Below, piece after piece: positions 6,587 to 38,480 of a stretch of 59,772 nucleotides of DNA. Every line of letters starts with the position of its first letter. Position 1 is the stretch's first letter. This DNA comes from Thiohalomonas denitrificans (GTDB taxonomy: Bacteria; Pseudomonadota; Gammaproteobacteria; Thiohalomonadales; Thiohalomonadaceae), in assembly GCF_016841685.1 (NCBI RefSeq), contig NZ_JAENYR010000016.1:1-59772 (forward strand). Reading direction: 5' to 3'. The notes beneath the pieces are model-generated. The model searched no databases. It was not told the origin of the DNA and worked only from the letters and a program-made list of their open reading frames with translations. Position numbers and translations under genes: made by a program.

Positions 6587-6647
6587 CCTTATTGGCGAGC
6601 TCGAACGCGCCTTCTGGCGCGTTTCGGCTCAGCCGGTCAGCAACGCT

Positions 6648-6851
6648 TTACTGAGGGGTAACGTTGCTGGCCTGGGGACCCTTGGGACCATTTTCCAGGG
6701 TGAAGCTTACGGGCTGACCTTCGGCGAGGGTTTTAAAGCCGGAGCCCTGGATTGCACTGAAGTGAACGAAAACGTCTGCGCCGCCATCATCCTGAGAGAT
6801 GAAGCCAAAGCCTTTGGATTCGTTAAACCACTTCACGGTACCTGTAGACAT
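6648..6851 (-). CDS. Cold-shock domain protein (CspA family)
   Basis: A 67-residue single cold-shock domain, the normal length for the family. RNP1 (KGFGFI) and RNP2 (VFVHF) are both intact, and the N-terminus [14 protein letters not shown] is typical. Such proteins bind single-stranded nucleic acid and act as RNA chaperones. AAAGG lies about 11 nt before the ATG. The roughly 240-bp AT-richer stretch upstream (6852-7093) is long enough to hold a cold-responsive leader, but no leader element could be recognised with confidence. A strong terminator follows the gene. Confidence 0.95.
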
Positions 6852-7093
6852 AATAATCTTTACCTTTGAAAATCAAATATATAGAGGGTTGTGCGTACAG
6901 GTAATGAAGAGGCGATTCGAGGAGTATCTCTGAGGCACTGCTGAAATTACCAATAACAATATCTGTAGCAAGCCAAACTATAGGCTGATTTCCGAGGGAA
7001 TGCCAGAACTATTTTCAGGCTGCACTCACTCACCCCCTGTCCGGCCGCAAATCATAACCGGGGCCGCACCTCCATGTGCCTGATTTATGTTCC

Positions 7094-7618
7094 CTATTCG
7101 ACCTTTATGTAGGCGAATTCTTCCGATTGTAGCTCAGCGATCCGCACGACCCCGGAAGGGACCGCTTCGACCGGCTCATAGAGCTGATCTTCAGCGACTC
7201 CGGCCTGGCGGCGGGTAATGCTGCATAACTCCAGCTTCACTCCCCGGTCGCTCAAGGAGAGCAGTCGGCCCCTGATGCTCTCCCGACGCTCCGCCAGTTC
7301 GGCATCCTCGGCGAAGGGGGTGTCGGCCAGCTTGTCGTCGGTGAGAAAGCGGATACCGTGGGCGACGAACACAATGCGCAGGTCATAATCGACCAGTTCG
7401 TTCTGGTAGTGGTTCACCATGTTGTTGATGCTGGTCAGCATGGCGCTGAAACGGCGCGGGTCGGCAAAGTCGGCGTGGTAAACGACCTTGACCACATCAT
7501 CGGAGAAATCCGCAGCATTCGTCCGCCCGGAAACCCAGCTCGTTGCGAGCACAAGGAGCGACACAGCCGCCAATAACCCGCCGCGTCCGAGAGCCGTGCC
7601 GGTCGGGATCACTTTCAT
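7094..7618 (-). CDS. Secreted DsrE/DsrF-like protein
   Basis: A 174-residue protein with an N-terminal signal peptide: basic MKVIPTGTALGRGG, hydrophobic LLAAVSLLVLATSWVSG, likely cleavage near TNAA. The mature part begins KVVYHADFADPRRFSAMLTS and contains NNMVNHYQ and DLRIVFVAHGIRFL, typical of periplasmic DsrE-family proteins. One Cys is visible (KLELCSITRRQ), at the position where DsrE-like proteins often carry a reactive Cys. A strong AGGAGG lies 6 nt before the ATG. The gene stands alone. A role in periplasmic sulfur handling fits the family and the other sulfur-related genes here, but is inferred. Confidence 0.8.
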   Translation of the reverse strand: MKVIPTGTALGRGGLLAAVSLLVLATSWVSGRTNAADFSDDVVKVVYHADFADPRRFSAMLTSINNMVNHYQNELVDYDLRIVFVAHGIRFLTDDKLADTPFAEDAELAERRESIRGRLLSLSDRGVKLELCSITRRQAGVAEDQLYEPVEAVPSGVVRIAELQSEEFAYIKVE

Positions 7619-29040: not shown

Positions 29041-29159
29041 GCTCTTTCGATGAGTGTAGTAGGAGAACCTCCGTTTCAGTGGCGGCCCGCAATCTCTTCT
29101 GGCTCGCGACCGCGAAACCGGCAGGCACCGCTACTGCACTGAGACGGTTTACCACCTAC

Positions 29160-29564
29160 ATGGATACGGATATGAGGCTACTGGTCGCCGAAGATGAAGA
29201 TATTCTTCAAGCCCTGTATGGCTTATTACTGCAACGGTGGGGATATCAGTACGATCTCGCTACGAACGGTGCTGAAGCCGTCGCATATGCCCGACTAAGG
29301 GGGCACGAATACGATCTTTGCATCATGGATGTGCACATGCCGAAGCTGGACGGTTTGGAGGCCACAAGGATCATCCGGCAAGAGGCCGGTGACTTCCCAA
29401 TCCTGGGCCACTCGAACGACGAAAGCCTTGAGCAAAAATGCGTGGAATCGGGGATGGACGGGTTCCTTCCGAAATCATGCGACCCGGAACGACTCCGTTC
29501 CGCCATCGAGGCCCTGACGTCAGACTCCATTGCGGTCAAGCGAAGAGGAACGGGCGCGGATTGA
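29160..29564 (+). CDS. Single-domain response regulator (CheY-like receiver)
   Basis: A 134-residue receiver domain without output domain. The acidic pocket is AEDED, the phospho-acceptor Asp is in CIMDVHMPKLDG, and the Lys is in GFLPKSCD; the Thr/Ser switch position reads GHSND. The tail (SIAVKRRGTGAD) is basic. The start is placed at the ATG of MDTDMRLLVAEDED because homology begins there; no clear ribosome-binding site is visible and ATG 29172 is possible. No kinase is adjacent. The last 46 codons belong to a 176-bp direct repeat whose second copy lies at 33067. Confidence 0.82.
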   Translation: MDTDMRLLVAEDEDILQALYGLLLQRWGYQYDLATNGAEAVAYARLRGHEYDLCIMDVHMPKLDGLEATRIIRQEAGDFPILGHSNDESLEQKCVESGMDGFLPKSCDPERLRSAIEALTSDSIAVKRRGTGAD

Positions 29565-29603
29565 TCGATCAATGATCACCAGTGCACGATGAAAGACCTG
29601 ACC
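29428..29603 (+). repeat. 176-bp direct repeat, left copy
   Basis: Covers the end of the receiver gene and the first codons of the ThiE-like remnant (MKDLT). The copy at 33067-33242 is the same length and about 90% identical by eye. Together they flank the restriction-modification genes. Confidence 0.85.
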
Positions 29604-29891
29604 TGCTCGCCCGAACCCTACCTGCTCGTTATCTCCGGCCACACCCTGAAAGCGCTCCGGAAAGGCGAAGCCCTCGGCGCCAGCTTTGCGGTGCTCTCGC
29701 CCATCAAATACACCAAGGCACACCCTGATATCCTGATATCGAACCTCTGGGGTGGGACGGATTAGATAATCGCCGCTCAGCTCAAGATACCCCTCTATGC
29801 CCTCGGCGGCATCAGCACGGACAACGAGCAAGAGGCGATCAAAAGAAGCGCGAACGGCGTGGCAGGGAACAGGGGATACTGGAAGGCCTAA
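29589..29891 (+). pseudogene. Remnant of a Nudix/ThiE-type thiamine phosphate synthase
   Basis: The reading LKALRKGEALGASFAVLSPI, KYTKAHPD, then KIPLYALGGISTDNEQEAIK and GVAGNRGYW matches the C-terminal part of the MutT-linked thiamine-phosphate synthase fold (ADFALLSPV...PVYALGG...G). An in-frame TAG at about 29763 splits it, and the N-terminal part is missing. It begins inside the direct repeat. It is probably dead. Confidence 0.65.
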
Positions 29892-29998
29892 CGATAAGTT
29901 TGGAGCAGTTGGAAGATTAATCGACTACGACCTAATTATTCTGTGCCTTCTGCGCTTTTGGGGGCAAAAATTTATTGCGACAAGATGCCGTGGTTGTA

Positions 29999-31099
29999 CT
30001 ACAGGCCCTTTAGTCCGCCAGTCGCATTCTGCTCACCCCGGAAGATCAATAGGTGGTTCGGTTCAGAAGCGAACCAGACGAACGAATGCCACGCCAGATT
30101 GTCTACGGTCTTCTTAAAGGCCGGTGTACTTCGATCCGCATAAGCAGTCACGAAAGCGACCTGGTCCCGCGGGAAACCGGCCGCATCGGTAAGTTTGAGA
30201 AGGGCTTTCTGGCGCCGATCTGAAATTGGACCGTCAGTGGCGACCACCTCGACAAAAATGATCAATGGCTCATCTTCTCCGAGGTCTGCCAGAATCATAT
30301 CCGGTAGATTCTTATCCGGCTCAATGGTGAGACCAATTTTTGCGGCGAGAGCATCGTCGCGACTAACAACCTTGTTTCCGCTTTCGCTCAGCCACAGGAC
30401 GACGGGTTCAATCAGAAAACGACGTGAAAACTCTTCGATGACTGCTTGCGAGATCACCGAGCTCGGGCCGGGCGCGAGTCGACGGGTCTCGCCATTGGGG
30501 AAAGTAACCACGACGCCGTCCTTGGAAGCGGCAGCGCCGCTCTGCTGAATGGCGATGCGGGCCAGCGCACCCCTGGAAAGATTGGCCTTTCGCCAAGTTT
30601 CGATCGCCAACTCGAGCTCATCACTCTTCAGGCCCGGCTCGAAAAGTGCGGCAAAACTCGGTGTCAGCGCATACCTCGGCTTACTCGACGTGGTTGGAAG
30701 ATCGGTTCGCAGATGAACGGCCCCCGTCGCCACCAGTCCCTCACGCAAGGTCTCATCGCGGATCGGCTCACGGGTATTGTCCGCATACCAGCGATGTCCC
30801 GGAGTGTGAAACCCGGGTTTCAGAGCCTCTTTGGCATAGGCAAGCCGCGATCCCGGATCACCCTTTTTCGCCTGCTCGTCAGTCATGCGGTAGACGTGCT
30901 TCGGAGCGAGAAAGCGACCGCTACCCTCAACGGCGCCGATGTAGAGCATCGTGAAAATGGTGCTGGCCGCCAGTTCACGGATACAGTAGTTCCGGTTGGG
31001 CGTGCCGTCCGGAAAGATCAAAGGCAGGCGCTCGGCAATTTCCTCCCTCGTGACATAGCCGGGGAGCTCTCTAACTTCCTTCATCGGGGGTGAATCCAT
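29999..31099 (-). CDS. BsuBI/PstI-type restriction endonuclease
   Basis: A 366-residue enzyme. The C-terminal half carries the BsuBI/PstI signature: RRFLIEPVVLWLSESGNKVV, LPDMILADL, and LIIFVEVVATDGPISDRRQK, in which the Asp, Glu and downstream basic residues form the PD-(D/E)XK-like catalytic core. The N-terminal half is the family's helical DNA-recognition region. Prototypes cut CTGCAG; whether this one does cannot be said. It overlaps the methyltransferase gene upstream by 29 bp, a usual arrangement for such pairs. A second ATG at 31084 is possible. Confidence 0.9.
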   Translation of the reverse strand: MDSPPMKEVRELPGYVTREEIAERLPLIFPDGTPNRNYCIRELAASTIFTMLYIGAVEGSGRFLAPKHVYRMTDEQAKKGDPGSRLAYAKEALKPGFHTPGHRWYADNTREPIRDETLREGLVATGAVHLRTDLPTTSSKPRYALTPSFAALFEPGLKSDELELAIETWRKANLSRGALARIAIQQSGAAASKDGVVVTFPNGETRRLAPGPSSVISQAVIEEFSRRFLIEPVVLWLSESGNKVVSRDDALAAKIGLTIEPDKNLPDMILADLGEDEPLIIFVEVVATDGPISDRRQKALLKLTDAAGFPRDQVAFVTAYADRSTPAFKKTVDNLAWHSFVWFASEPNHLLIFRGEQNATGGLKGL

Positions 31100-32909
31100 A
31101 GAGCCGGGCGCATTCTTTTTCTATCCGTTGCTGTGGTGCCCCTGCCCGGACGAGTGCAGCGAGCGGCTTCATCGCATCGGGGGCCGGAAGCGGCAGTGCC
31201 TCCAGTTCGTAGGCGGAAACGGCCACGCTGCCGCTCAGGCAGCGGAATACGGCATCAACGGTACCGCTGTTCAGAAAAGCGGTCAAAACCTTCGGGCTGA
31301 CCTTCGGGCGCTTCATCGTGGTCCGAATCATGTTGAGGTGATTCTCCACCACGGCACCGCCGTGTTCCCGCAGGAAGCCGGCAGGCAGTTCGGCGGCAAC
31401 CAGCCGACGACGCTGCTCCTTTGCCGTGGTCCGCTGGAGCAATACGCAAGGGGCGTCGATGACCAGCCAGCCGTCACGCGCCGTCACCGCGAAATAGGGC
31501 AGGTGGTTCCGCTTCTCCGCCCTGAAGACGAACCGTCCCTCGCCAGTAACCGCCTCGGCCCAGATGAGCGGAAACCGCCCGTCTCCCGGAGCATTACGAA
31601 GCTGCTTCTTGTGACGGTTCCAGACCAAGGGTCCGGTACTGACCTTGTAACCCCAGTCCGCCAGCCGATGCTGCATTGCGAAGGCCTGCCGAATGAGGTC
31701 CCCCTGTGCTGCGGTGCGTGGCACCAGCCACGGGCCGGAGGCATCTGCGGGCAAGGAAAAGTCCCCGGCACGGTGCACGTGGAGGCGCCGGTTCTCCCCC
31801 GCGGTAAGCTTGTATGCGGCGGCACTGCGCCGCTCTCCATCCATCCGGTAACAGGCAAGCAGGGTCTCCTGCAGGACGTCCTCGAACACTCCCTTGCGGG
31901 CGTCGATAAAGTCAAAGCTGACGGGCGGAGCTTCGGCCGCGAGCGTCCGGCGCAGGTTCTTGAAGTAGCCGCCGGCAAGAAAAGAGGTGGGGCTCACGTA
32001 GGCGATTACTCCACCATCCTTGACCTGGCCCAAGGCAATGTCGGTAAAAAGGCCGTAGAGATTGGCATGGCCGTACAGTGTGCGGCGAAACCGCCGACGC
32101 CGCTCTTCACTCAGGCTTATCCGACCGTACGGGGGATTGCCGACCACCAGGTCGAAACGCTTATCGGGGAGCTCCCGGGCAAGGGTATCGCACACGGTGA
32201 CCAGACTCTGTAGCCGCCGACCGGCACGGCGCGTATAGGGCAGCAGGACCGCATCCACGGCCACTTGCGACAACCAGGCCGCGAACGGATCAATTTCATA
32301 GCCGTGTAGCCGCGCGCCGATGTTCTGCAACAGGATTGCCGGCGCACAGTCACCCAGGGCGTTGACCATGCGCTGCGCCACCGGCGCAAGGAAGGCTCCG
32401 CCTCCGCAGGCGGGATCGAGCACGCGGCAGGTTCGCCAATCCACACCTGCTGAGCCCGCCTGATGCAGCAGGCGCTCCGTAAGCTCGGGCGGGGTGTAGT
32501 AGACGCCATGGGCCGATCGCCACGCTGGCGGCAGCATGACATTGTACAGGAGGCCTATCTGGTGAACCGCACACTCAGCATCAAGTTCGCCGGCAGCCTT
32601 GCCGAGATTCTCTGCCAGGACCGATGCCGAGTCGGCCAGTGGCGCCAGTTCCACGACCCCATGTATCGACCGGAACTTCTCCGTCCCGCCAATTTCCTGC
32701 CAGTACGCGGCTACAACTTGCGCACAGAAGCCTCGCGCAATCGCAAGCCGTGCGTCGGCCTCTTCCTCTGCCGCCGACAGCGCACGCGCCATTATCCGGC
32801 CCGAAGCCAGCGCCTCCCTCGCCAGTGCCGGGCCAGGAGAAAACAGGTTGTGCTCGTTCAGGAGATCTGCCATCAGCCGCGCCATTGGGAGTCGCCTCTC
32901 CTTGGTCAT
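31071..32909 (-). CDS. N6-adenine DNA methyltransferase, partner of the endonuclease
   Basis: A 612-residue enzyme. SAM-binding motif I is VLDPACGGGAF and catalytic motif IV is NPPYG; VYYTPPELTERLLHQ precedes motif I, as in gamma-type N6-adenine enzymes. The long C-terminal part (about residues 330-600) is the target-recognition region, larger than in M.PstI (about 500 residues). It should protect the host at the site cut by the adjoining endonuclease. The ATG at 32909 is taken; ATG 32885 has AAGGAGAGG upstream and may be the true start. Confidence 0.9.
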   Translation of the reverse strand: MTKERRLPMARLMADLLNEHNLFSPGPALAREALASGRIMARALSAAEEEADARLAIARGFCAQVVAAYWQEIGGTEKFRSIHGVVELAPLADSASVLAENLGKAAGELDAECAVHQIGLLYNVMLPPAWRSAHGVYYTPPELTERLLHQAGSAGVDWRTCRVLDPACGGGAFLAPVAQRMVNALGDCAPAILLQNIGARLHGYEIDPFAAWLSQVAVDAVLLPYTRRAGRRLQSLVTVCDTLARELPDKRFDLVVGNPPYGRISLSEERRRRFRRTLYGHANLYGLFTDIALGQVKDGGVIAYVSPTSFLAGGYFKNLRRTLAAEAPPVSFDFIDARKGVFEDVLQETLLACYRMDGERRSAAAYKLTAGENRRLHVHRAGDFSLPADASGPWLVPRTAAQGDLIRQAFAMQHRLADWGYKVSTGPLVWNRHKKQLRNAPGDGRFPLIWAEAVTGEGRFVFRAEKRNHLPYFAVTARDGWLVIDAPCVLLQRTTAKEQRRRLVAAELPAGFLREHGGAVVENHLNMIRTTMKRPKVSPKVLTAFLNSGTVDAVFRCLSGSVAVSAYELEALPLPAPDAMKPLAALVRAGAPQQRIEKECARLYGFTPDEGS

Positions 32910-33066
32910 CTGCTATACCGGTGATCATAAATACACCAGTTAAGCCTGCACCGCAACGGCGATGCAGGAGGGGATCTAACCACGTGTATGGATTGTGCCG
33001 GTTTACAGCCTTTGGGGCCAGGCGGCGGGATTGGATATTGTTGCTCTGACCCTAATGATTCCGATG

Positions 33067-33242
33067 TTGAGCAAAAATGCCTGGAATCGGGGATGGATGG
33101 CTTCCTTCCGAAATCATGCGACCCGAATCGACTCCATTCGGCCATCGAGGCCCTAACGTCAGACTCGATTATGGCCAAACGGAGAGGAACGGGCGCGGAT
33201 TGATCGATCAACGATCACCAATGCACGATGAAAGACCTGACC
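33067..33242 (+). repeat. 176-bp direct repeat, right copy, with receiver-gene tail
   Basis: Encodes EQKCLESGMDGFLPKSCDPN followed by RLHSAIEALTSDSI, the C-terminal end of the receiver protein, then a stop and the MKDLT start of the ThiE-like remnant. Upstream of it the receiver sequence is not recognisable. Most differences from the left copy are silent or conservative, so both were probably once coding. Confidence 0.85.
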
Positions 33243-33310: not shown

Positions 33311-33747
33311 TCAGATCAGGTGTTCGCTAACTTCGCCACGCTCCTTTTTGGTGATTGCGGCGTGCACCGGTCGCAGTTCGGCCACCACCAGGAGCATTCC
33401 CGTGCGGCACACCGGGCAGCGTTCCTGGGGGACGCGCCCGGGCACCGGGTCCGCCGCTTTGGGTGTCGAAAGGGGCACTTGGACGGCAAGTACGCTCCGG
33501 ATTTGGCGCAGCCGCTCGCGCCGGCAGCCGTTGGCCAGGAAGCCGAAGTGACGCACCCGCATCAGCCCCTTCGGCAGAATATGCAGGAGAAAGCGATGCA
33601 CAAACTCGTGGCCTCCAGGCGCAGCATCTTCTGCCATTCACCATCCCGGTAGTCCTGTAGCGAAAGCTCACCCGTGCTCATCAAGCGCTTGCAGGCGATG
33701 GGGGTGATCGCGATCCGTTGGGTGTAGCGGTGCTGATATGTACTCAA
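33311..33747 (-). pseudogene. IS91-type transposase remnant, frame-shifted
   Basis: Reading on the minus strand, STYQHRYTQRIAITP and LQDYRDGEWQKMLRL run in one frame, and EFVHRFLLHILPKGLMRVRH then FGFLANGCRRERL continue in another, with the switch near 33605-33620. This is the C-terminal Y2-transposase region of IS91 elements. The catalytic N-terminal region is missing. Confidence 0.8.
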
Positions 33748-33779: not shown

Positions 33780-34023
33780 GCGATTAGATCAGACGCAGGG
33801 TTTGCATGGCTTATTGGCGACAGTGGCGCAAACCGCGCACCAAAGTCAGGAATCTGCTGAAACTCGGCGTACCCATTCAGTCCGCGGTCGCGTGCGGCAT
33901 CACCAGCAAAGGCCCATGTCGTAGCTCCAAGACACCGGGGATACAGCAGGCAATGCCTATTTGAAATCTCAGGGACTCTACGCGCTGCGGGATGGATGGA
34001 TCAAGCTGCACTATCCTGAGTAA
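33780..34023 (+). pseudogene. C-terminal fragment of a group II intron reverse transcriptase
   Basis: The translation IRRRVCMAYWRQWRKPRTKV then RNLLKLGVPIQSAVACGITS matches the group II intron maturase C-terminus (thumb/X region). The protein resumes in a second frame as YLKSQGLYALRDGWIKLHYP and ends at TAA 34021. An internal stop and a frameshift make it non-functional, and the reverse-transcriptase domain is absent. The intron 3' end follows at once. Confidence 0.85.
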
Positions 34024-34093
34024 AACGTCCTGTGCGGCCCCGCATGCAGGGTGTCGTGGGGAGGGAGGGTTAGAGACCCTCCCTTACCCGATT
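34024..34093 (+). mobile_element. 3' end of a group II intron (domains V/VI)
   Basis: CCTGTGCGGCCCCGCATGCA, then GGGAGGGAGGGTTAGAGACC and CTCCCTTACCCGATT, has the layout of the 3' end of bacterial class C introns. The strand is opposite to the cassette genes on its right, the orientation described for class C introns that target attC sites. Only the 3' part of the intron remains. Confidence 0.75.
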
Positions 34094-34127
34094 AACTAAT
34101 ACGTTCCAGCATGTTGATGCCGTTCCG

Positions 34128-34421
34128 CTAGTTTCCATCTCTTCCCTTCGAAGCACCTATTTCTTTCACGCTGCGTCTTAATGAAATGGGCATAAACAGC
34201 GCCAAGACCACCAAGGGAAACAAGAAAACCGCTATGACTTTTAAAACCAAACTTCTTTTCGCGAAGAGATAGATCGCGAATTCAATGTAAAGGAAAATCA
34301 AGCCGATCGTGATAGCCAACTCGACCGCTTGCCTGATACCCCACACATGTGCGGCAGCGCCAAATGCCGTCATGACCAGAATTATTCCTATATAAGCCTC
34401 TGTTCTGCCTTGCTTGCTCAT
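34128..34421 (-). CDS. Integron cassette: small membrane protein
   Basis: A 97-residue protein with three hydrophobic helices (IGIILVMTAFGAAAHVWGI, AITIGLIFLYIEFAIYLFA, VIAVFLFPLVVLALFMPIS) and a basic C-terminus. Family not recognised. The ATG lies only 5 bp after the attC of the neighbouring cassette (34427), and there is no ribosome-binding site, both common in cassettes. Its own attC should lie below 34127 and appears to be interrupted by the intron end. Lower GC than the chromosome. Confidence 0.65.
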   Translation of the reverse strand: MSKQGRTEAYIGIILVMTAFGAAAHVWGIRQAVELAITIGLIFLYIEFAIYLFAKRSLVLKVIAVFLFPLVVLALFMPISLRRSVKEIGASKGRDGN

Positions 34422-34426
34422 TCAAA

Positions 34427-34495
34427 GGCTAACGGCAAAGCTGAGGGGCCGAGGAAAGCGCGTAGCGCTTTCCGAGGTCCCTCTCAAGGTTGGGC
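34427..34495 (-). other. attC recombination site A
   Basis: In cassette orientation it starts GCCCAAC and ends GTTAGCC, with an inner stem GGAAAGCGC-TAC-GCGCTTTCC and outer complementary parts (GAGGGACCTC/GGCCCCTC). It lies 7 bp after the stop of the 166-residue gene. Length 69 bp, within the known attC range. Confidence 0.8.
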
Positions 34496-34501
34496 GCAAG
34501 C

Positions 34502-35002
34502 TCACTTCTTTGCGTGCGCATTGGCGCAAATTTCTTCCCTCATCTTTTCGTCTTCGGCCACTGCGGTCTGGTAGGTGTTTAGGAGTTCGTCAATCCATCC
34601 CTTCGTCCGGTCGAGTTCGATGATTTGCTTTTCTAGCGCACTAACCGAGAGGGAACCGAAAGCGGCCTGCGTGTTCGGAACCATACCTGCAAGCTCGGTA
34701 GCACGCTTAAGGTCTCGCTCGTACTGTTCCTGGAACCGCTGCATTAGCCCAGAATGCAACATTCCTCGCGCATTCAGTACAGCCTTTCGCGATTGCAGCG
34801 CCCTCGGCAATAGATCAACCAAGCTGACTGCCGCGACATGCGCGGCGTTCCTCAATTTATCCAGTTCCAAGCGGCGGTCCGCTTCCCTGACCTCCCTTGA
34901 ATGTCGATATGCCACGAATCCCATGATGGAGCCGGCGACCCCGGTGAGTGCCCCGATGATTCCGGTCCACATTCCAACATAGGCGATAGTATTCGAATTC
35001 AA
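34502..35002 (-). CDS. Integron cassette: protein with N-terminal helix and coiled regions
   Basis: A 166-residue protein, family not recognised. One N-terminal membrane helix (VGMWTGIIGALTGVAGSIMG) is followed by a charged helical domain (HSREVREADRRLELDKLRNA, and AEDEKMREEICANAHAKK at the end), so most of the protein probably sits in the cytoplasm. The start is TTG, supported by a perfect AGGAGG 6 nt upstream; no ATG is near. Flanked by attC sites A and B. Confidence 0.7.
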   Translation of the reverse strand: MNSNTIAYVGMWTGIIGALTGVAGSIMGFVAYRHSREVREADRRLELDKLRNAAHVAAVSLVDLLPRALQSRKAVLNARGMLHSGLMQRFQEQYERDLKRATELAGMVPNTQAAFGSLSVSALEKQIIELDRTKGWIDELLNTYQTAVAEDEKMREEICANAHAKK

Positions 35003-35024
35003 TCACCACCTCCTGCCGAACTGC

Positions 35025-35072
35025 GCCCAACGTCGCGTTCACCGGCTTGTCCGGTGCAATGCATGGTTATAT
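35025..35072 (-). other. attC recombination site B
   Basis: In cassette orientation it begins near ATATAAC and ends GTTGGGC, with a central stem CACCGG-ACAAG-CCGGTG. It directly follows the stop of the P-loop gene. At 48 bp it is short. The core is nearly the same as site C. Confidence 0.7.
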
Positions 35073-35074
35073 TT

Positions 35075-35581
35075 TTACTTACCACTTGCACCCAACTCAA
35101 CCTTTATCTTATCAACAAGATCATCAAGCTTTGTAGCCTTACTGAGCACAATACCTTTTTGTTGCTCCATCGATTTTAAAATAGATGGCCTTGTAAGCGA
35201 GGGGAACAACCAAATCAGTTTAGTTAAACTAAGGATGATTCGAATTTCCGGGCAGTTTGATGGAAGTTCTGGACGAGATTTAAACAAGTACGGCAAGTTA
35301 CGCTTCAGGCAACGGAGGAAACAAATGTGCCTTGGTGTATCAAGAAAGACTATGAACTCTGCGTTATCTCGAACTGTTTTTGACACTCCCTCAATGACCC
35401 AGTTGTCTTGGATGACCCATTGTTGCTCACCAGCCGCTCTCTCTACTTTTGAAGCAGCAATCCATCCCTCTTTCCAAACTACACTATCTAAACTCGCTAC
35501 CGGTATAGCTAGAGCTTGGCCTAGTTTTTTGGCCAGCGTCGTTTTGCCAGAACCAGCATTACCTGTGATATGTAGTCTCAT
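35075..35581 (-). CDS. Integron cassette: P-loop NTPase/kinase-like protein
   Basis: A 168-residue protein with Walker A GNAGSGKTTLAKKLG at the very N-terminus, then LDSVVWKEGW, WVIQDNWVIEGV and FIVFLDTPRHICFLRCLKRN, the layout of the adenylate-kinase-like 'topology modulation' (FlaR-like) family. It would bind and hydrolyse a nucleotide or phosphorylate a small molecule; the substrate is unknown. Such genes are known as integron cassettes. GAGGAA lies just before the ATG. Sites B and C flank it. Confidence 0.82.
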   Translation of the reverse strand: MRLHITGNAGSGKTTLAKKLGQALAIPVASLDSVVWKEGWIAASKVERAAGEQQWVIQDNWVIEGVSKTVRDNAEFIVFLDTPRHICFLRCLKRNLPYLFKSRPELPSNCPEIRIILSLTKLIWLFPSLTRPSILKSMEQQKGIVLSKATKLDDLVDKIKVELGASGK

Positions 35582-35593
35582 ATTTCCTCAATA

Positions 35594-35641
35594 ATATAAC
35601 GCCGCGCTCACCGGCTTGTCCGGTGCACCGCTTGGTTAGGC
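35594..35641 (-). other. attC recombination site C
   Basis: In cassette orientation it starts GCCTAAC (a perfect RYYYAAC) and ends GTTATAT, with the stem CACCGG-ACAAG-CCGGTG, as in site B. The cassette's gene ends at 35758, leaving a 116-bp non-coding tail before this site. Confidence 0.75.
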
Positions 35642-35757
35642 ATCTTTATTTTCAACATTGTTCTTGCGTTCCAAAATTGATGCTATATTGCCTAGTTGCT
35701 TGCCAATCGCATCCAGGCTCTTATTCGTTTTCAAAAATATTGTATTATTTCGTCCCT

Positions 35758-36267
35758 TCATTGCTCGGCTAAGTCATACGCAGGGCTATTGCCCGCATGC
35801 ATCTTCGCCATGTACTTAACATCAAGTACTGATACATCCTTGCCGTTCTTTTTTCTGCGCAAGGGGGTCATATAGTTATACGTGATTTCAACAGGAACTT
35901 CGTCACCAATTTCCGAAAGCAAGCCCCCGTACTGCCCAGCTTGATACCTCAGTGCTTTCCCTGGCGCCAATATCGGAATTTTTATATTCAAGAAGCTTGA
36001 CCTATCTATGTCGCTCGGTCCGTTAATCCCCCAGCAGTTAATAGGGATAGGATTCGAGAAAGTTACATCTCTAGCTGTGCCACCGTCATGGTTACATATG
36101 ACAAGGTCTATCACTGAGCCAACATCATTACTTGGTTCATAATGTGCGATTACGTTTGGTTTTGACTGCCGATAAACTGCTAGATACGCAACAGCGACCG
36201 CAAGAAAGGTAGCTATGGGGCTGATTATGTAAAATAGAATCTGAAAGTTTGTTGGATCAGTTAGCAT
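35758..36267 (-). CDS. Integron cassette: membrane-anchored protein, unknown
   Basis: A 169-residue protein with one N-terminal membrane helix (FQILFYIISPIATFLAVAVA), then a beta-rich domain (NVIAHYEPSNDVGSVIDLVI and CNHDGGTARDVTFSNP) that resembles the immunoglobulin-like domains attached to single-helix proteins found in cassettes and prophages. The C-terminus is hydrophilic. Family not recognised. No strong ribosome-binding site. Lower GC than the chromosome. Bounded by attC sites C and D. Confidence 0.65.
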   Translation of the reverse strand: MLTDPTNFQILFYIISPIATFLAVAVAYLAVYRQSKPNVIAHYEPSNDVGSVIDLVICNHDGGTARDVTFSNPIPINCWGINGPSDIDRSSFLNIKIPILAPGKALRYQAGQYGGLLSEIGDEVPVEITYNYMTPLRRKKNGKDVSVLDVKYMAKMHAGNSPAYDLAEQ

Positions 36268-36295
36268 ATTAGTACGTCCACGTATTATCCTTGAT

Positions 36296-36379
36296 GCCTA
36301 ACGCCCGCAACACGCGCGGCTTTGCAGTGAAGGCGAAGCCGCAACGAAAAAGACGTCGCTGTGCCTGCGATTGTTAAGC
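36296..36379 (-). other. attC recombination site D
   Basis: In cassette orientation it starts GCTTAAC and ends GTTAGGC, both exact matches to RYYYAAC and GTTRRRY, with inner complementary parts (GTTGCGGCTTCGCC and GCAAAGCCGCGC). Length 84 bp. The clearest attC in the array. Confidence 0.85.
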
Positions 36380-36429
36380 ATTCATTGCGTCACAGTGGGC
36401 GAAAAATACTTCGTCATTGGCAATCTTGC

Positions 36430-36576
36430 CTAATCATACTGGTGCTCGATATATCCGATACCAAAGAGTGTCACCACCAGTAAAGCAGATGCTAGGATTC
36501 TGAAACAAAACAACCTGAACTTGTTTGCCCAATCATGTCTAGCCTCAAGCTTCAACTCCTTTTCTTTGAGCGCCAC
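36430..36576 (-). CDS. Possible small membrane protein or frame-shifted tail
   Basis: A 48-residue frame from a GTG: VALKEKELKLEARHDWANKF then RLFCFRILASALLVVTLFGI, one membrane helix, ending HQYD. The frame stays open upstream, overlapping the 89-residue gene in a different frame (LLNQVSSFLESISGLKLRR), so this may be the natural C-terminus of that protein, separated by a frameshift near 36640. No start signal decides between the two readings. Confidence 0.4.
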   Translation of the reverse strand: MALKEKELKLEARHDWANKFRLFCFRILASALLVVTLFGIGYIEHQYD

Positions 36577-36617
36577 CCCTTTCGCGACTCTTCGGAGTTT
36601 AAGTCCTGAAATGCTCT

Positions 36618-36887
36618 CTAGAAACGAAGAAACTTGATTAAGGAGTTTTCAAGGTCGTCTTTCAGTACAAAAAAATCTTCGGGCTCATCAGCATCAATAG
36701 CCTTATCTTTCAGTTCTTCCAAAGCCGCAAGATCAAGTTCCTCTAGCCTTTTCTCAAAATCTTCTCGCACTTCCGCCCTTGTGCGATTATCAGGAACACG
36801 TATTTGAGGAGGTTCATAGCCTCCCACACTGTCCGAAAGTGCTTGTAAATTTTGCATGATACTCGAAGGATCGAACCGTCCAGCCAT
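36618..36887 (-). CDS. Integron cassette: small acidic protein, unknown
   Basis: An 89-residue hydrophilic, acidic, mainly helical protein (REDFEKRLEELDLAALEELK). Family not recognised. AAAGGG lies 8 nt before the ATG. It is the last cassette gene on this side; its attC is site D. The downstream frame described at 36430-36576 may be its continuation. An inverted repeat lies upstream at 36919-36963. Confidence 0.6.
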   Translation of the reverse strand: MAGRFDPSSIMQNLQALSDSVGGYEPPQIRVPDNRTRAEVREDFEKRLEELDLAALEELKDKAIDADEPEDFFVLKDDLENSLIKFLRF

Positions 36888-36918
36888 ATCGAAACCCTTT
36901 CTTTCGCTTAACCGTGGT

Positions 36919-36963
36919 TTATACAGAATACGTAATTTGTCATGTTATACCGATTCTGTATAA
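36919..36963. promoter_or_regulatory. 11-bp inverted repeat upstream of the last cassette gene
   Basis: TTATACAGAAT (36919-36929) and ATTCTGTATAA (36953-36963) are a perfect inverted pair 23 bp apart in an AT-rich stretch. It may be an operator or the end of a lost element; no integrase gene is near to suggest an attI site. Confidence 0.4.
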
Positions 36964-37044
36964 CACCGTGAAAAACCGAAAACCGTCTGAGCACTGCTAC
37001 ATAGGCCAAGTGGGCTTGTTGTAAGTGGCGCGATCGGCGTCTGT

Positions 37045-37977
37045 TCAGGTTTGGTCGCTTTCGGCTGCATGTCGCAATCCTGCTATCTTGTTTTCACAGA
37101 CTTCCGCCGTCAGTTCCTTCAAATCCTCAACCCGTTTGGCGATGGCGCTCAGTTCTTCGTCGGTGATGGCGTACCGCTTGCTGTAGCGGGCGTCGACGTA
37201 GGCGCGGCGGAGGAGGTCGAAGAGACGTTTGTTTTGGTCGGTGTCTTTGGGGAAGACATCGGTGAAGCGGGGGTCGAAGCCGGCGGCCTGGTTGATCAGG
37301 TTCTGGAGGTCGTGCTCCTTGGGGCGGTAGCCGGTCTGGACGAGGAGGAGACAGGTGATGTAGCGCTCGGCCGATTGGTGCAGCTGGAATGCGGCGATCT
37401 TGAGGCGCCCACGGGACTGGTAGAACCCTACACCCTCAAAGAATCCATCGGCGCTATCCATCCACTCCTCGAAATACTCCTCCGCATGTCGCAATCGCGT
37501 TTTTGGCGGCAACTCCTTTGGCGGCCGTGCCAGCTTGTAGCGGCCGGAGTCATAGAGCAGGTACCCCTCTTTGAGGATGTCCATGAAGAAGTAGCGCCGT
37601 TCGGAGAGCATCTGGTTGACGTGGTGGATGGTGTGGACGATGTAGTTGACGCGGGTGCCGTCTGCTCGCGGCTCCAGGGCGTCTTTGAGGTCGTTGTCGT
37701 AGGCGACGTTGCGTTCGCTCTTTTTGTCCGCGGTGACGATGAGGATGTCGAAGTCGGAGTGGTATTCGTAGGTGATGTGGTCCTCTTCGTAGCGGTCTTC
37801 GACCCAGTCGCCGCGGGCGTGGGAGCCGAAGAGGATGATCATCTCGATATCGTGGCGCTCGCGGATGGCGGCGACGATTGCATTCAGCTCGTCGAGCTTG
37901 GAGGCGGGTAGGTGTTTGGGCCGTTTTTTCATTTTGTACCAGGCCGGCGGGCCGGCGGTTTCCATGATTGCGCTCAT
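37045..37977 (-). CDS. Nucleotidyltransferase-HEPN fusion protein
   Basis: A 310-residue protein. The N-terminal nucleotidyltransferase has ILFGSHARGDW (the GSxxxGD motif) and the catalytic DFDILIV (DxD). The C-terminal half is a HEPN domain: RHAEEYFEEWMDSADGF, AAFQLHQSAERYITCLLLVQ, then GYRPKEHDLQNL. Separate nucleotidyltransferase and HEPN proteins often form toxin-antitoxin pairs (MntA-HepT); here both are in one chain. The ATG at 37977 overlaps the stop of the 75-residue gene upstream (ATGA), so the two are coupled; a longer start would re-read that gene. The RxxxxH ribonuclease motif is not clear in the HEPN part. Confidence 0.85.
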   Translation of the reverse strand: MSAIMETAGPPAWYKMKKRPKHLPASKLDELNAIVAAIRERHDIEMIILFGSHARGDWVEDRYEEDHITYEYHSDFDILIVTADKKSERNVAYDNDLKDALEPRADGTRVNYIVHTIHHVNQMLSERRYFFMDILKEGYLLYDSGRYKLARPPKELPPKTRLRHAEEYFEEWMDSADGFFEGVGFYQSRGRLKIAAFQLHQSAERYITCLLLVQTGYRPKEHDLQNLINQAAGFDPRFTDVFPKDTDQNKRLFDLLRRAYVDARYSKRYAITDEELSAIAKRVEDLKELTAEVCENKIAGLRHAAESDQT

Positions 37978-38201
37978 GCCCGGTCCTCCCTGTCGAAGAA
38001 CTTCGAGTTGATGTCGCGGACACAGGCTTCGAGGCAATCCAAATCCTGTTCCAGCCGGCTGGCCAGGTCCTGGAGGACATGGGCACAGGCGGCCCGGTCC
38101 ACATCCTGGAGGTCGGTGGACGGCAACAGCAAGTCGGCGAGCAGGCGCACTTGCGACGCAGCCAGGAGGAGCTCCTCCCTGGCGTTTTTGTGTTCTTCCA
38201 T
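37974..38201 (-). CDS. Small helical protein coupled to the NT-HEPN gene
   Basis: A 75-residue, mostly helical, acidic protein (NAREELLLAASQVRLLADLL, then CAHVLQDLASRLEQDLDCLE) with three cysteines. Family not recognised. AGGAGA lies 6 nt before the ATG. Overlap with the NT-HEPN gene suggests the two are made together, perhaps as partners in one complex (inference). The stretch 38202-38480 upstream has no gene. Confidence 0.65.
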   Translation of the reverse strand: MEEHKNAREELLLAASQVRLLADLLLPSTDLQDVDRAACAHVLQDLASRLEQDLDCLEACVRDINSKFFDREDRA

Positions 38202-38480
38202 AGTGTTCTCCTGATAGTTCTTCCGTGTGTCCCCGGGGCAATCCTTCTGGGGCACGATGAGCTATCAGGTGCGGCGGGTTTGTTTCCCTGGTGCCCGGGT
38301 GTTAGGCGCAGAGGGTTTTCTATTACGCCCTCACTCGGACCGACTTCACCGGGTGCTTCGGCCGCCTGAATCGGGTTTATCGTAATCGATGGGTGGGGCA
38401 AGCACAAACAGCGGCCTCGATGTCGGATCGAACGCACATCGATGTTGATGTGCGGAGTAGTGCGCGGGAGAGGGTGTTAC

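Follow-up and report, generated by a model that had tools for sequence, protein, structure and literature searches.

The DNA analysed here, called the window throughout, is the whole of contig C48 (59,772 nucleotides) in a draft Thiohalomonas denitrificans genome of 3.79 Mb and 160 contigs. On its minus strand, the stretch from 36912 to 34093 holds five cassette-sized genes in a single orientation and four attC-like sites, all of them present as a first-pass annotation of the letters alone had described. That annotation labelled the region a cluster of attC sites lacking an integrase (CALIN), a label that fits, since the attC sites are clustered in the same orientation with no integrase in cis. 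It overlooked both ends of the array, where there are an attI-like element at the head and the 3′ end of a group II intron at the tail. From head to tail, the features are:

36907-36974, minus strand: attI-like head element, GTT core at 36912-36910, common to contigs C157 and C156 of the same genome and to G001:C2 of another genome in the genus.
36302-36911, minus strand: cassette 1, with an open reading frame (ORF) at 36618-36887 and an out-of-frame tail to 36430; family searches assigned no function.
36296-36379, minus strand: attC of cassette 1, GCTTAAC..GTTAGGC, 72% identical to an attC of contig C20 over 89 columns.
35600-36301, minus strand: cassette 2, with an ORF at 35758-36267 and an out-of-frame tail to 35636; no family match.
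35594-35641, minus strand: attC of cassette 2, GCCTAAC..GTTATAT.
35031-35599, minus strand: cassette 3, with a gene for a P-loop kinase-like protein at 35075-35581.
35025-35072, minus strand: attC of cassette 3, ATATAAC..GTTGGGC.
34433-35030, minus strand: cassette 4, with a gene at 34502-35002; no family match; a homologous cassette occurs on C157.
34427-34495, minus strand: attC of cassette 4, GCCCAAC..GTTAGCC.
34093-34432, minus strand: cassette 5, incomplete, with a gene at 34128-34421; no family match and no attC found.
34023-34092, plus strand: group II intron 3′ end that closes the array, in antisense orientation relative to the cassettes.

The R′ and R″ boxes of a true cassette are parts of one site in its circular form, and complementarity between the two is therefore expected. 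Each R″ of cassettes 1 to 4 is the exact complement of its own R′ at seven of seven bases (GTTAAGC/GCTTAAC, GTTAGGC/GCCTAAC, GTTATAT/ATATAAC and GTTGGGC/GCCCAAC); for cassette 5, reading of the sequence gave no R″ complementary to its R′. A strict chain search on the window returned three linked cassettes, the fourth link, itself real, being absent because GTTAGCC falls off the search pattern. Among 200 random sequences of window length, generated by a second-order Markov model and searched on one strand, the longest chain was one with arm pairing and two without. The chain of four cassettes with complementary boxes is not produced by chance. The ends of the sites are of the RYYYAAC/GTTRRRY type overall, as had been claimed, but GTTATAT, ATATAAC and GTTAGCC deviate from the strict consensus. 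A scan for paired-arm sites found three in 34.0-37.1 kb (random mean 0.43, maximum 3), and a version with stricter arms found two (random mean 0.04, maximum 1). The expected folding was clear at one site, 34429-34495, which folds better than its shuffles (z -4.2), but not at the other three (z -0.7 to -1.4). Folding energy is not stand-alone proof of the attC sites.

The first-pass annotation placed each attC directly after a gene stop, which stands except that the fifth gene has no recognisable attC and that two genes of the five appear frameshifted, which leaves 117 and 239 bp between their ORF stops and the attC. The cassette 2 protein is 68.5% identical to a plasmid protein of Catenovulum adriaticum (220 aa), which spans the ORF and then continues into the tail in another frame, where residues 176-220 align at 57.8% identity over 45 residues; the cassette 2 gene is frameshifted on this evidence. 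Upstream of the Catenovulum gene, on the same strand, there are attC-like matches of 20.4, 16.3 and 13.7 bits. Cassette 1 has a similar out-of-frame tail, by the appearance of which its gene looks frameshifted; a search of the plasmid collection gave no homologue. Both frameshifts may be mutations or assembly errors. The cargo is indeed mostly of unknown function; at the thresholds applied, four of the five genes match nothing in Pfam, NCBIfam or PADLOC. The cassette 3 protein matches AAA_18 and PRK08118, both below their curated cut-offs.

The array begins at a conserved element of about 60 bp whose sequence ends at the GTT core. A 70-base search of 42 genomes returned strong copies in G001, a genome of the same genus, as well as on C48, C157 and C156; each copy ends at GTT and has a different cassette after it. 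Another array of the same genome, on C57, has a diverged head of the form seen at G001:C3, and C87 retains only the left part of the element, at a ribonucleotide reductase locus where the element is whole in G001. A first model of the element (R2, built on four copies) was run on 20 genomes of the family, the order-rank set being these same 20 genomes, and added two copies in G014, which belongs to another genus, as well as diverged or weak copies at G001:C3 and G003:C6. A second model (R3, built on 14 copies) scores 60 bits at the window head and 34 bits at G003:C6, in the latter case on the strand other than that of the palindrome first noted there.

Two further features flank the array:

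37045-37983, minus strand: nucleotidyltransferase-HEPN gene (Pfam), upstream of the head, in a segment repeated on C157 and C83.
33311-33637, minus strand: IS91-type (Y2) transposase remnant (PF04986, 31 residues), beyond the intron end and beside the array.

The segment that holds the nucleotidyltransferase-HEPN gene (window 36909-38385) recurs on C157 at 93% and on C83 at 96% identity, and the C48-C157 repeat begins inside the R′ box of cassette 1, with different cassettes following on C157. That the head is a mere flank of this duplicated segment was rejected because C156 and G001:C2 show the element alone. A gene-less mini-cassette bounded by GTTATAC and GTATAAC was likewise rejected, as the G014 copies lack those boxes. 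As a separate observation by eye, two small genes resembling nucleotidyltransferase-HEPN genes lie upstream of the head on C156.

A collection of 84,980 species was also scanned for the element. A first pattern returned no places in the genome contigs and a looser one returned eight, in four metagenome-assembled genomes, three of the eight being in a genome whose contigs match G014; a pattern scan of viral contigs returned none. At one of these places (L108, JADFPU010000078.1), the element sits in the attI position of a divergent gene for a 463-aa protein that scores 465.6 bits with the integron-integrase model TIGR02249 (cut-off 265). The other seven loci, of 4.8-8 kb each, gave no match to short-type integrases; one of them, G014:C181, has a fragment of a long integrase directly upstream of the head, which would be expected of arrays that lose their integrase. 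With R3 at E 0.001, the element was found in 35 of 369 Gammaproteobacteria genomes, the present one included.

Forty of the R3 loci, from 28 genomes, were searched with an attC covariance model (R1) trained on 14 sites, none of them from the window. No locus among the 40 had served to train R1 or R3, and the selection omitted the present genome, reverse-strand duplicates of a site, some places at contig edges and many weaker places. All 44 attC matches of at least 20 bits lie downstream on the strand of the element, with none upstream and none on the opposite strand (93,257 bases scanned upstream and 119,981 downstream), and 16 of the 40 loci have one or more. At nine loci a divergent integrase or its remnant is present, with the alignment starting 137-218 bp upstream of the element, and eight others (L143, L144, L147, L157, L158, L169, L170 and L173) have downstream attC matches and no integrase within about 2.5 kb upstream; L169 has a weak integrase match (28%) downstream. 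Less is seen at the remaining loci, many of which have little sequence downstream. Copies in G121 on C13, C42 and C54 end in GATAA, not GTT, and are followed by the same bases, with C17 similar; at L145, L146, L151 and L165 of this genome, GATAA-ended copies are followed by the same GC-rich sequence. These copies were not counted as heads, yet they are included in the 40 loci.

The integrases linked to the element are long. The eight intact ones measure 463-480 aa from the first methionine, while 15 of 18 other integrases compared measure 294-358 aa; of the remaining three, G019 and G055 are long and the start of G009 (404) is uncertain. The G019 locus has a weak element match (15.7 bits). In the element-linked proteins (e.g., L108, 504-1895), about 150 extra N-terminal residues precede the usual SAM domain. 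The tree does not place these integrases in one clade; they are an unresolved fan outside the supported clade (100/100) that contains the C12 integrase of the present genome and no element-linked integrase. A search for long integrases at E 1e-15 gave a match in 12 of 14 genomes, those in G349 and G374 being short stretches only; G001 and G237, which have the element, gave none. In G121 a long integrase has a linked element and the other copies lack the GTT core, and in G100 a long-type integrase lies on a contig that ends at the integrase, with a headed array on another contig.

Altogether, about a dozen array fragments and a single broken integrase occur in the present genome. The window has no integrase, in agreement with the first-pass annotation, as neither PF00589 nor NF011946 matched on C48. 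The same does not hold for the genome, where C12 carries the only near-complete integron integrase found in the genome, frameshifted into two overlapping frames with a stop, and C20 carries an integrase fragment. Cassettes, a group II intron and an attI region accompany the former, and three cassettes the latter; the attI regions of C12 and C20 do not resemble the head element. Intact integrases of the C12 type, 75-76% identical, occur in the relatives G009 and G015. C101 and C12 share integrase-downstream and intron sequence, and the contig ends of C12, C156 and C157 contain one identical 49-bp stretch, part of an attC. R1 at E up to 1 marked 23 places on 11 contigs of the whole genome, five of which are its own training sites. 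Cassettes of the sister array on C157 (L042, 1175-3570) encode SIR2-like and TIR-like proteins by weak PADLOC matches, possible defence cargo. On C20 (L026), the C-terminal part of a desaturase-like gene lies on both sides of the integron (1142-2041 and 6846-7604) and the right contig end repeats integrase-downstream sequence, hinting at tandem duplication.

Considering this evidence together, we think it likely that the window holds an integron cassette array without an integrase in cis that kept its attI, was built by a long integrase and is now mostly static. The reading is based on four complete cassettes with their four attC sites, on a head common to other arrays and on an element family found in the attI position beside divergent integrases. 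The head element is very probably an attI. The cassette array starts from it, and its own sequence stops at the G/TT core. No divergent intI is found beside it in the window; such a gene, or a remnant of one, accompanies relatives of the element at L108 and at the nine loci noted above. L and R boxes are features of known attI sites, with two extra repeats in attI1, according to the accessible part of PMC8946536. Here, three half-sites (ATTCCGTATAA-like, one inverted) together with the GTT resemble an integrase-binding array, in which cutting would occur at G/TT. An integrase of the long kind (~465 aa) would once have inserted cassettes at the GTT of this attI, and the cassette nearest the head would be the newest. 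Erosion is now under way, with two genes apparently frameshifted and the last attC lost at the group II intron. Further cassette movement would require an integrase acting in trans on folded attC sites. The array is probably mostly static now, since the C12 integrase is frameshifted, belongs to another clade and has an unrelated attI. The same accessible text states that attI and integrase co-evolve and that an integrase generally works inefficiently with a non-cognate attI; the C12 integrase would thus be expected to load the head site poorly. It might still act on attC sites, by analogy with IntI1, which used five of six attC sites of a phage CALIN in the available portion of PMC9892861.

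Several observations weigh against this reading. The site scan, folding and R1 back the window sites only weakly; run over the 59.8 kb, R1 detects two of the four, those of cassette 4 (15.6 bits, E 0.16) and cassette 2 (15.3 bits, E 0.19), and misses that of cassette 3, and its whole-genome search at E 1 gives no attC match on C48. Matches to R1 occur in only two of the eight pattern-scan loci, L108 not among them, and 24 of the 40 R3 loci have no match of 20 bits, some through little downstream sequence. A consensus scan at the head showed no sigma-70-like promoter. No long-kind integrase was found in the genome's own assembly, and the draft assembly may hide one or may have created the frameshifts.

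An alternative that we regard as unlikely is that a single integrase serves many docking sites, the attI units of about 60 bp being dispersed and the orphan arrays built and reshuffled in trans. This would suit G257, G352, G067, G385 and G387, which combine a long integrase and its linked element with further copies elsewhere; in G257, orphan arrays contain 10, 9 and 4 attC matches of at least 20 bits within 5-5.5 kb, the third copy, on C1, likewise having downstream matches. Several within-genome pairs of copies are alike over some 45-75 bp to the left of the core and unrelated beyond that, with the exceptions of G339 and G349 (longer), the present C48 and C157 (repeated segment) and the diverged copies C57, G001:C3, G014:L105 and G067:C6. 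Cassette 4 is also common to two arrays of the present genome, matching C157 567-1110 at 87% DNA identity over 544 bp. However, the sole integrase found in this genome carries a frameshift and does not belong to the linked kind, the element occurs in G001 and G237 without an integrase match, no cassette exchange in progress was seen, and integrase loss from copied integrons accounts for part of the pattern (fragments in G014:C181, G067:C6 and G067:C56).

A further alternative is that an integrase put the cassettes into a non-classical chromosomal site (attG) that is repeated in the genome; insertion of cassettes into attG is on record, being mentioned in the accessible parts of PMC12444791 and PMC12901181. 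We consider it improbable here because the head is a sequence family conserved across genera and found beside integrases in the attI position, whereas an attG target is neither attI nor attC. An assembly artefact, in which part of the C12 integron, misplaced or broken off at repeats, ended up as the window array, would suit a draft genome in which C12, C156 and C157 end in the identical attC stretch, and draft assemblies raise CALIN counts (PMC9024848, in part), but it is very hard to credit for an array inside a 59.8-kb stretch with flanking genes when the attI region and cassettes of C12 differ.

The array can be compared with known systems. A CALIN is defined by at least two attC sites and no integron integrase (PMC9024848, accessible text). 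The C48 array shares with CALINs its several attC sites, single cassette orientation, lack of a nearby integrase and cargo of unknown function; the definition asks for no attI, whereas this array starts at a conserved attI-like element. One attI-headed CALIN has already been published, in the Shewanella prophage M16-3 (PMC9892861, in the part available). It opens with an attI, a likeness to C48 with its probable attI, and the integrase to which that attI belongs is located elsewhere in the prophage. That is a single prophage case with a Shewanella-type attI, whereas here an unrelated attI family heads arrays at several loci and in many genomes. CALINs also occupy several fixed chromosomal loci in Xanthomonas, and several loci in Shewanella; as here, the genus Xanthomonas has several integrase-less arrays at loci apart from intI, but the accessible description, the basis of this comparison, mentions no shared head site (PMC12444791). 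In a literature search largely confined to papers outside subscription, no description turned up of orphan arrays in different genera that share an attI family at their heads, and the wider pattern appears unreported in those sources. RefSeq counts from a partly accessible source make CALINs and complete integrons roughly equally common (2961 and 2760).

An attI family at CALIN heads would give a handle on the origin of such arrays, on the integrase that built them and on their capacity to still receive cassettes, and the element model lets integrase-less arrays be found and sorted. More tentatively, it is possible, though we would not favor it, that long-integrase integrons are multi-locus systems in which the attI of ~60 bp is a discrete, spreading unit and many arrays depend, or once depended, on one integrase. 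If so, some CALINs would be satellites, each equipped with a docking site, and not random debris.

At the tail of the C48 array, only the 3′ end of the group II intron survives and the attC there is not recognisable. The intron end scores 30.7 bits with RF00029 (E 0.0026), below the gathering score of 40, and is 88% identical to an intron end in the same antisense position that closes the C20 array and passes the gathering score at 40.9 bits. Group IIC-attC introns insert antisense into attC sites (PMC7923331, accessible part), and C48 resembles them in that a CALIN stops at an intron end lying antisense to its cassettes, with only the 3′ end present. The intron of C12 (L001, 6700-8670; D1-D4 and domain V matches) lies directly after an attC and, in contrast to these known antisense introns, is in the cassette orientation. 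Elsewhere in the window, an Rfam search at the gathering score returned a cspA thermoregulator RNA only (6598-6989), and a BsuBI/PstI-type restriction endonuclease and methyltransferase (29079-33203) lie between a response-regulator gene and its apparent truncated copy.

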